A program made the position numbers and the translations under genes. Of a DNA stretch of 64,000 nucleotides, positions 3,398 through 18,987 are shown piece by piece; position 1 is the stretch's first letter; each line of letters begins with the position of its first letter. This stretch comes from Nitrospinaceae bacterium (GTDB taxonomy: Bacteria; Nitrospinota; Nitrospinia; Nitrospinales; VA-1), in assembly GCA_021604505.1 (NCBI GenBank), contig BQJC01000001.1, positions 1,509,501 through 1,573,500 on the forward strand. Direction: 5' to 3'. Below the pieces are notes generated by a model. It had not been told where the DNA came from and searched no databases. It saw only the letters and a program-made list of their open reading frames with translations.

Positions 3398-6300
3398 ATG
3401 GCATTTTTCTCCAAACTCATGCGCTCTGCAAAGCCCCGGGACCCCCGCTACGGGCCGGCTCCGAGCGAAGACTTTTATCCCGTTGATTTTGAGGAAAACC
3501 TCCCGGAGAACGAAGACGACGCTCCGCAAAATGCTGAAATTTCTACAATCGACGAAGAGTTGGATCTTCTGCTGGAAGTAGAAGACATTCAGGTGCAAGC
3601 CGAGCCTGCTCCAGCAAAGACGGAAACCCAGGAATCCAAAAAGCCGCCGACGATCCCGGAGAAAACAGACCCCCCCACTCCCTTGAAGATTCCTGACAGA
3701 CAACTTGGAAGAAGAGCCTCGGATCAAATCAAACCGCTGGTCAATAAGATCCTTTCTGCTGGAAGCACACGGGAGGTTTTATTGTCTCTGACAGAGGATC
3801 TCAAAAATATTTTCAAAAGCCAGACCGTGTTCATTCATTCCATCGACCGGGGAAAAAGACGATTGCTGGTACAAAATCACGAAATGGAAAATGGAAAAGA
3901 ACTGTTTCTGGAGATCACATCCAAAAGCCTCTCTGGATTTTGCGCGGCTACAGGAAAAACTCTCAACATTGCCGATGCCCATTCTTCAGCCGAACTCAAG
4001 CAATATGATCCCGACCTGAAACACGACAAAGCCTGGGATAAAGCAACCAGCATCAAAACCCGGTCCGCTCTGGTAGTCGCCTTACCTTATGAAAAAAGGC
4101 TTGTCGGGGTCCTGGAAATCGTCAACAAGGTAGAAGAAAAGAAATTTAACGACGACGATGTGCGACAGGCCAAGGAACTGGCAACCACTCTGGGCCATGC
4201 GCTGGTCAAACTGGGGCTCGAGCAGGTCGAAGAAAAAGTGAAAGTCACGGCGCATGCCATCCACTCAGCGAAAAAACTGGACGACATTCTCTTAGGTCTC
4301 AAAGACAGCATTCTGGACCTTTTCGATGCCGACATGATAACCATTTATGCCATCGACCCGAAAAAGAACGAAATTTATTCCAAACTGAAAACAGAGAATA
4401 TCATCAACGAAATACGGGTTCCCATTTCATCCAAAAGCATTGCCGGCTGGGTCGCCGAGCAAAAGCGGCCCATCAATATCGCCGATGTTTATAATCAGGA
4501 AGACTTGAGAAAGTATCATCCGGAGATCACCTTTGACAGTTCCTGGGATAAAAAGTCCGGCCTCAGAACAAAGTCCATGCTGGTCTACCCCTTGATCCAC
4601 AATGGCAAAACCATGGGGGTCTTACAGCTCATCAATAAAAAGTATGGAGAAACCTTCACTAAATTCGATCAAAAAAATATTCTGATCATCGCCGACCATC
4701 TGGCTTTGGCGTTCTCCAACCAGCAAAACACAGCTCCAAAAAAGAAAAGCAAATTCGGATACCTTGTGGACAACGGAATCATTACTCAAGAGGAGTTGAA
4801 CAAAGGCATTTACAAAGCACGCGAAGCGCAGGCCGATATTGAAGATATCATGTTGGGGGAATGGAAGCTCAAGCGAAAGGATGTCGGGAAATCTCTGGAA
4901 ATTTTTTATGAAATCCCTTACTCCGGATACAACGACTCCATCGTATTGCCTCAGCATGTGCTAGCCGGGTTGAACAAGAACTATCTTGCCAAAAACGGTT
5001 GGGTTCCTATTGAGAACACAGCGTCGCAAATGACGATTCTAGTCGATGACCCCGCCGATCAGGACAAAATCAACAATATAAAAATGATTCTGCCTAAAAA
5101 GCAGATCAACTTTCACATCGGCCTGAAAGCCGATATCCGTGACTTTTTAAATACCGGAGTCTCTGGTGAGAGTTTGTTTGCCGAAGAGGAGGAGGAAGAA
5201 AAAAGCAATACGGAAGAACTATCATCTCTTCTCGACGCCCTGGTCGATGAGCAGGCGGACGCTTCGTTCGATAGCACCGGGCCAGATGACGACGCAGTAA
5301 ATGCGATCAGCGAAACTGACAGCACCATCGTCCGGCTGGTCAACAAAATCATGACCGATGCTTTTGACCAGGGAATTTCCGATATCCACGTAGAGCCGGG
5401 CGTGGGGAAAAAGGATGTCAAGGTCCGCTTTAGAAAGGACGGCACCTGTCGAATCTACCAGCAAATACCTTACCTCTACAAACAGGCGATCATTTCCCGT
5501 TTAAAAATAATGGCCCGTTTAGACATCGCCGAAAAAAGAATGCCTCAGGACGGAAAAATCAAAATGAAGTACGGCAGAAGGGAGATTGAATTTCGCGTTG
5601 CCACCTGCCCAACCGTCGGGGGGAATGAAGATGCCGTACTCAGAATACTTGCTTCCAGCAAACCGATTCCTCTTGATGAAATGAGATTCAGCCAGCGCAA
5701 TTTGGAGTGGATCAAGCAAAAAATTGCCATGCCCTATGGCCTTGTTTTAGTGGTCGGACCGACCGGGTCCGGAAAAACAACCACGCTTCATTCGTGCCTG
5801 GGACATATCAATACCGATGAACGAAAAATCTGGACTGCGGAAGATCCCGTCGAAATCACCCAGGAAGGTTTAAGGCAAGTGCAGATGCTGGACAAAATAG
5901 GCTTGAACTTTGCCCGCGCCATGCGTTCGTTTCTTCGCGGAGACCCTGATGTGATCATGGTGGGTGAAATGCGCGACACCGAAACCGCCGCCATTGGCCT
6001 GGAAGCCTCTTTGACCGGGCATCTTGTATTCAGCACGCTGCACACGAACTCCGCTCCGGAAACCATCACCCGTCTCCTCGACATGGGAATGAATCCGCTT
6101 AATTTTGCCGATGCCCTGTTATTGATCGCCGCTCAAAGGCTGGTCAAAACCCTGTGCAAGGAATGCGCGGAAGAATACCATCCGGATAAAAATGAGTTCG
6201 AAATCCTTGTGCAGGAATATGGAGAAAAGGAATTTAAAGAATTGAATATCAAACACAATAAGGATCTGCGCTTAAAAAAACCCGTCGGATGCTCCGCTTG

Positions 6301-18756: not shown

Positions 18757-18843
18757 CAATTGACCTTTCAAATCGGGTTTTGTTCGGGATACAGAACAAA
18801 AAAGGTTTTTAAAGCAAACCTTCAGGGAGAATACCGGGAATCT

Positions 18844-18952
18844 AAAAAGAAAGGGGTGCTGAACCCCCTAAAGAAACCTTGATGGCAACCAAGATCGTTC
18901 TAAAAAGGAAATGTCCGCTAATGAGGACAGAAGTTCAGCACCCCTCAGAGAT
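18844..18952 (-). ncRNA. Candidate ~109-nt structured RNA with intrinsic terminator
   Basis: Read on the minus strand, a predicted start near 18952 is followed within 8 nt by the arm AGGGGTGCTGAAC. Its perfect 13-bp complement GTTCAGCACCCCT lies about 70 nt later (plus-strand arms 18852-18864 and 18933-18945) and runs into a T-rich tail (CCCCTTTCTTTTT, ending near 18844). The enclosed part can form TGTCC/GGACA and CTTG/CAAG hairpins, each with an 8-nt loop. A local GGGGT/ACCCC terminator hairpin is an alternative to the long closing stem. It lacks the SRP RNA apical motif and I recognise no riboswitch consensus. It sits about 90 nt before the TolC-like gene, so it is either a stand-alone small RNA or an attenuating leader. 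Confidence 0.6.
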
Positions 18953-18958
18953 AGACAA

Positions 18959-18987
18959 AATTTATCACATGGCCTATACCCTGTCAA
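18959..18987 (-). promoter_or_regulatory. Predicted sigma70-type promoter of the candidate RNA
   Basis: On the minus strand a perfect TTGACA (plus coordinates 18982-18987) and TAAATT (18959-18964) are separated by 17 bp. The predicted start near 18952 coincides with the 5' end of the stem-closed RNA. Confidence 0.6.

Follow-up and report, generated by a model that had tools for sequence, protein, structure and literature searches.

In E. coli, the trans-acting RNA DsrA lowers the amount of a nucleoid protein by way of the start region of the hns mRNA; it is Hfq-dependent and has multiple targets. The kissing-loop antisense RNAs of plasmids, for example CopA/CopT, are encoded in cis opposite their target, with long, near-perfect complementarity and mirrored hairpins. 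RaiZ of Salmonella represses hupA, which encodes HU-alpha (PMC5391140). IhtA of Chlamydia represses hctA, the gene for the histone H1-like protein Hc1; it is a 107-nt transcript with a hairpin loop that occludes the hctA start codon (PMC4355289, PMC3469542). IhtA pairs over about 7 nt at the AUG, not with the Shine-Dalgarno sequence, and has a second target (PMC4355289, PMC3469542). Both in IhtA/hctA (PMC4355289) and in RaiZ/hupA (PMC5391140), pairing in the start region blocks initiation.

The RNA gene described here was found in a genome of the order Nitrospinales, within a stretch of 64,000 nucleotides (the window). It is intergenic, with its own promoter and rho-independent terminator, both of which are kept in the homologues. 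As is characteristic of trans-encoded repressor small RNAs, this promoter and terminator are combined with a conserved loop complementary to the start of a distant mRNA. That mRNA encodes an H1-like nucleoid protein, and the predicted pairing includes its start codon, as in IhtA-type regulation. The RNA resembles IhtA in length, in the succession of stem-loops and a rho-independent terminator, and in having a loop that would lie over the start codon of a trans-encoded H1-like gene. It differs from IhtA in a predicted pairing of about 25 nt that includes the Shine-Dalgarno sequence, in having one apparent target, and in belonging to another phylum. It most likely works like IhtA/hctA; the likeness is one of description and not of demonstrated homology. 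With DsrA it shares the predicted action in trans on the start of a nucleoid-protein mRNA, and with CopA/CopT the mirrored hairpins; in contrast to the latter, it lies at a locus separate from its target and its duplex contains three G-U wobbles.

DsrA and RaiZ also differ from this RNA with regard to chaperones. Whereas DsrA requires Hfq, no Hfq (PF17209) was found in any of 41 Nitrospinales genomes, and small-RNA regulation of any kind in this order would thus need another chaperone or none. Unlike RaiZ, the RNA is transcribed from a promoter of its own by prediction, and ProQ (PF04352) was not found in the genome that carries the window; positive controls were detected in both searches. Because neither protein was found, the RNA would act without Hfq or ProQ, and chaperone-free action is plausible for such a long, strong duplex. 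The RNA is a previously undescribed family, which we place among the trans-encoded antisense RNAs as a new one, unusual in its one apparent target, its pairing over about 25 nt, and the failure to find Hfq or ProQ. Among open-access papers we found no earlier report of Nitrospina small RNAs or of the H1-like protein.

A sequence-only reading of the window had described a promoter on the minus strand (TTGACA, a 17-bp spacer, and TAAATT), a perfect 13-bp closing stem running into a T-tract, and two internal hairpins with 8-nt loops. All of these are present, and the promoter has an extended -10 TG in addition (Table 1). The stems of the two hairpins are TGTCC/GGACA and CTTG/CAAG. The same reading had put the start point almost exactly at the closing stem; the two are indeed close, but the coincidence is not exact, as the stem opens about 7 nt inside the transcript when the start is placed about 7 nt after the -10 element. 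A 117-nt stretch of the locus folds at -45.6 kcal/mol, compared to -26.3 ± 3.4 kcal/mol in 200 shuffles, none of which reached the native energy (z -5.7). The A/U-rich hairpin that follows the RNA (AAGGTTT...AAACCTTTTTT) folds at -7.1 kcal/mol (z -2.3).

Table 1. Positions of the RNA gene and its parts in the window.
Feature	Position	Strand	Remarks
Sigma-70-type promoter of the small RNA	18959..18987	-	TTGACA (18987-18982), 17 bp, TAAATT (18964-18959); extended -10 TG
Predicted small RNA, about 109 nt	18844..18952	-	Start inferred from the -10 element, end inferred from the T-tract
Closing stem, 5' arm AGGGGTGCTGAAC, 13 bp	18933..18945	-	Changes on both sides at 8 of 13 pairs
Left hairpin, TGTCC-8 nt-GGACA	18912..18929	-	Sequence and length vary between genera
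Antisense core UCUUGGUUGCCAUCAAGGUUUCUUU	18870..18894	-	25 consecutive predicted pairs (3 G-U) with the H1-like mRNA start
Closing stem, 3' arm GTTCAGCACCCCT, also the terminator stem	18852..18864	-	Resembles an element of the target mRNA 3' UTR
Intrinsic terminator U-tract	18844..18851	-	Closing stem runs into TTTCTTTTT, to 18844
Second terminator-like hairpin, A/U-rich	18795..18823	-	Lies downstream of the small RNA, before the TolC-like gene

The RNA had been said to fit no familiar riboswitch or housekeeping RNA consensus, and in the Rfam scan it had no match at the gathering score (0 families). With E values up to 10, there were two weak, chance-level matches, neither of them to IhtA. A permissive match to STnc390 was rejected, as it overlaps the adjoining A/U-rich hairpin. 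A micro-protein on the antisense strand (MATK...) was also rejected; the frames comprise 4 to 59 residues, with nothing in common after MATK.

Homologues were collected through a DNA search of 60 relatives and a scan of 84,980 species genomes for an exact 21-nt core pattern. In the scan, 76 of the 77 matches belong to Nitrospinota/Nitrospinae/Nitrospina records, or to a few Nitrospirae/Nitrospirota records that share contigs with the 60 relatives. A covariance model (R1), built from 38 sequences, found full-length copies in 51 genomes, all from four families of one order, and one further copy split over two contigs. The RNA is thus present in 52 of the 64 Nitrospinales genomes, including 27 of the 28 with a completeness of at least 90%. 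The same search found none in the five other families of the class; the phylum-wide search with R1 returned no genomes beyond the 77 of the class search. Genomes of the order carry one RNA each, except for two (G002 and G044) with two each; in G002, the two copies are located on contigs that duplicate one gene neighborhood. In its own genome (3.64 Mb), the RNA is a single copy, and the possibility that it is a dispersed miniature element, against which the original observation was to be checked, was rejected for this reason. In family f2, parts of family f4, and genus g7, about 20 additional nucleotides, in many cases forming a hairpin, directly precede the antisense core; in L022 they read, for instance, AGATAATTTCGATTATCT, and the homologous loci include L016 and L019.

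The gene shows signs of selection in its promoter, its fold, and its core. TTGACA is present in all 45 upstream regions of homologues, and an extended -10 element follows at 17-18 bp in 44 of them; its lack in the 45th is a trimming artefact. In the closing stem, 97% of cells are paired. A covariance search across relatives, as proposed at the outset, did find compensatory changes: the named structure contains 31 cells with changes on both sides, compared to 10.0 ± 2.4 in shuffled alignments (0 of 500 reached this number), and slid controls were far lower. Column entropy is 0 in the core CUUGGUUGCCAUCAAG and its 3' flank versus a mean of 1.34 bits in the left hairpin, which has no invariant column; the core with this flank is the sole invariant internal part of the RNA. 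This invariance is partly by construction, because the rows contributed by the exact-core scan were selected for an unchanged core; the BLAST and pattern searches are less biased.

The sequence-only reading did not extend to a target. That target is an H1-like gene elsewhere in the genome, to whose ribosome-binding site the core is complementary. With its flanks, it is the reverse complement, allowing G-U, of AAGGAGAUCUUG-AUG-GCA-ACC-AAG, which comprises the Shine-Dalgarno sequence, the start codon, and codons 2-4. The complementary stretch is located at G000:C1:79,690-79,718, while the RNA lies at G000:C1:1,528,3xx. The open reading frame begins MATKKKAAKKKTAKRKVAKKK... at G000:C1:79,69x and encodes 81 residues, nearly all of them Lys, Ala, Val, Thr, and Arg; its match to HC2 (histone H1-like) is sub-threshold, at 19 bits with a cut-off of 40. 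In this genome, the duplex has 25 consecutive pairs, three of which are G-U. The energy with the H1-like start is -41.5, whereas 1452 other candidate starts in the same genome have a mean of -19.5 (sd 3.9), with a best value of -30.9; the z-score of the H1-like start is -5.6. The four next-best core matches in the genome were rejected as further targets, as they were without a convincing Shine-Dalgarno-AUG context.

The complementarity is to the start of the same H1-like gene in all four families that carry the RNA. Across 42 matched genome pairs, the duplex energy ranges from -45 to -65 kcal/mol. The pattern GGAG-N5-8-ATG-GCN-ACN-AAR, in which the spacer and the synonymous positions are left free, recovers the start of the H1-like gene from almost every Nitrospinales genome. 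Wherever it finds the gene, in all four families, the start reads GGAG[A/T][T/C]CTTG ATG GCA ACC AAG. Other genes that fit the pattern use varying codons, and further down the H1-like genes GCA, ACC, and AAG make up 39%, 21%, and 35% of their codons, respectively. In 48 distinct leaders, the stretch from the Shine-Dalgarno sequence to AAG hardly changes, in contrast to the variable nucleotides that immediately precede it.

RNA and target are each found in 27 of the 28 near-complete Nitrospinales genomes, and neither was found in other families of the class. In one draft genome (G012) the RNA is present and the target was not found, and in another (G062) the target is present and the RNA was not found. 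In family f2, the target has changed from A to U at position -6, where the RNA still has U or a comparable mismatch. The evidence for trans-compensation is weak, because the RNA leaves this change uncompensated.

The 77th exact-core match is not an RNA gene; it is the start of an H1-like gene in a Burkholderiales record from another phylum (L097; CP070661.1, Burkholderiales bacterium bin78), identical over 22 nt to the target in Nitrospinales (GGAGATCTTGATGGCAACCAAG). Among the matches listed, this record has no second exact core match. Since this start occurs without a detected RNA, the start sequence alone can arise in other ways; coincidence, transfer, or a misbinned record may account for it.

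In the mechanism that we propose, the RNA would be transcribed from its own strong promoter and would end at its own terminator, the stem of which would be the long closing stem. The hairpin CUUGG-loop-CAAGG would present a loop that, together with its 3' flank, is complementary to the Shine-Dalgarno sequence, the start codon, and codons 2-4. The RNA and the mRNA start are predicted to fold as mirror hairpins, so that a natural model begins with contact between the loops, from which pairing would spread into a long duplex of about 25 bp over the Shine-Dalgarno sequence and the AUG. The duplex would cover the ribosome-binding site and block the loading of the 30S subunit; decay of the mRNA may also result. 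We consider it probable, at roughly 0.86, that this is a trans-encoded antisense RNA that acts without Hfq or ProQ and prevents the H1-like mRNA from being translated by blocking initiation. The layout of the gene, its covariation and conservation, and the complementarity to one gene start throughout the order are shown; we infer that the RNA is transcribed, that it pairs with this mRNA in the cell and represses it, and that it needs no chaperone of the Hfq/ProQ families.

The H1-like mRNA has a structural feature of its own. In the target region (L032, positions ~4,340-4,780; G000:C1 ~79,340-79,780) and its homologues, the leader contains a 14-nt element that is complementary to a stretch beyond the stop codon. 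The leader element, UGRGCGCUGAARCR, lies about 30-57 nt before the AUG, and in most genomes checked its partner follows the stop codon at a distance of 34-140 nt. A tabulation of 29 genomes shows pairing in 97% of the cells of the helix, with changes on both sides at positions 3, 5, 7, 12, and 14, and G-U pairs at positions 2, 10, 11, and 12. These changes give good support to a long-range "panhandle" helix between the 5' and 3' UTRs of the H1-like mRNA.

The closing stem of the RNA (GGGGYRCUGAAC / GUUCAGYRCCCC) resembles the two elements of this panhandle. The 3' arm of the RNA binds the leaders with a mean predicted energy of -16.9 kcal/mol versus -11.7 for shuffled leaders. However, matched pairs of 3' arm and leader were no better than permuted pairs (p 0.84), and because these pairs show no co-evolution we keep the second contact as a mere possibility. 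It is an attractive but unproven idea that the RNA arose when a copy of its target was inverted and shortened; the closing stem would then derive from the mRNA panhandle, and the core would go back to the strand opposite the start of the gene. The RNA may be a domesticated copy of the target, inverted and with an internal deletion, that would silence the mRNA both through invasion of the panhandle and through covering the start codon; this is a tentative proposal, to which we give clearly less than even odds. If true, it would be a case of two-site, chaperone-free silencing of a closed bacterial mRNA.

Gene order around the RNA is proA - M50 peptidase - RNA - TolC-like - dprA - topA in most of the order. 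In one genome (G017; L014, L085), the RNA is present and neither the M50-peptidase gene nor the TolC-like gene was found beside it. This is a reduced genome of 1.7 Mb, 97% complete, in which the RNA adjoins dprA-topA and proA, too, was not found beside it.

In most genomes the TolC-like gene lies downstream of the RNA, as one would expect if the RNA were a cis-acting leader of that gene, be it a riboswitch, an attenuator, or a terminator element. The persistence of the RNA in G017, without the TolC-like or the M50 gene beside it, and a locus (L009) in which the TolC-like match starts 670 nt from the core argue against a cis switch; a cis-acting leader would be expected always to stay linked to the gene that it regulates. 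Moreover, the RNA ends in its own terminator, which is followed by the second terminator-like hairpin, and the trans target accounts for the conserved core. The sequence-only reading had seen no antiterminator, and the fold analysis likewise saw no competing antiterminator fold. We regard a leader function as very improbable. The original observation is real, and its preference for a stand-alone small RNA over a switch for the TolC-like gene is supported by the conserved promoter and terminator, the covariation, the single copy in the genome, the lack of an Rfam match at the gathering score, and the persistence without neighbors.

Two further explanations accept the relationship with the H1-like gene and differ in what it would mean. 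The RNA could pair with the H1-like mRNA as an activator or a decoy, or could itself be sponged by the mRNA. Since its 3' arm could compete with the covarying 5'-3' UTR helix, the RNA could open a closed form of the mRNA. Against these roles, the core covers the Shine-Dalgarno sequence and the AUG themselves, start pairing blocks initiation in the IhtA and RaiZ systems cited above, and the second contact shows no co-evolution; we consider them improbable, though slightly less so than a leader function. Alternatively, the complementarity could reflect common descent only, the RNA being either a functionless remnant of an inverted H1-like gene start in decay, or one that mainly serves some other function. 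Apart from the missing coding part, the RNA in fact follows the order of the H1-like unit read in antisense, namely 3' element, start, and leader element. However, the core has stayed the same in four families and the left hairpin has diverged without constraint, and the promoter and the closing stem are under selection, which leaves common descent alone as hard to credit as a cis-acting leader. Repression of the H1-like mRNA by antisense pairing at its start is the reading that we prefer, and because the pairing is near-perfect, order-wide, and directed at one gene, it lends itself to a direct test in E. coli with two plasmids.

The Nitrospinota are major marine nitrite oxidizers, and the Nitrospinales occur in marine environments and in groundwater. 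With this RNA, the phylum would have a regulatory RNA that acts by base pairing and whose target can be named, in genomes without a detected Hfq or ProQ. It would also be a further, apparently independent, small RNA that acts over the start codon of a nucleoid-protein gene, after IhtA/hctA, RaiZ/hupA, and DsrA/hns, which suggests that antisense RNAs have come to control histone-like proteins repeatedly in evolution.
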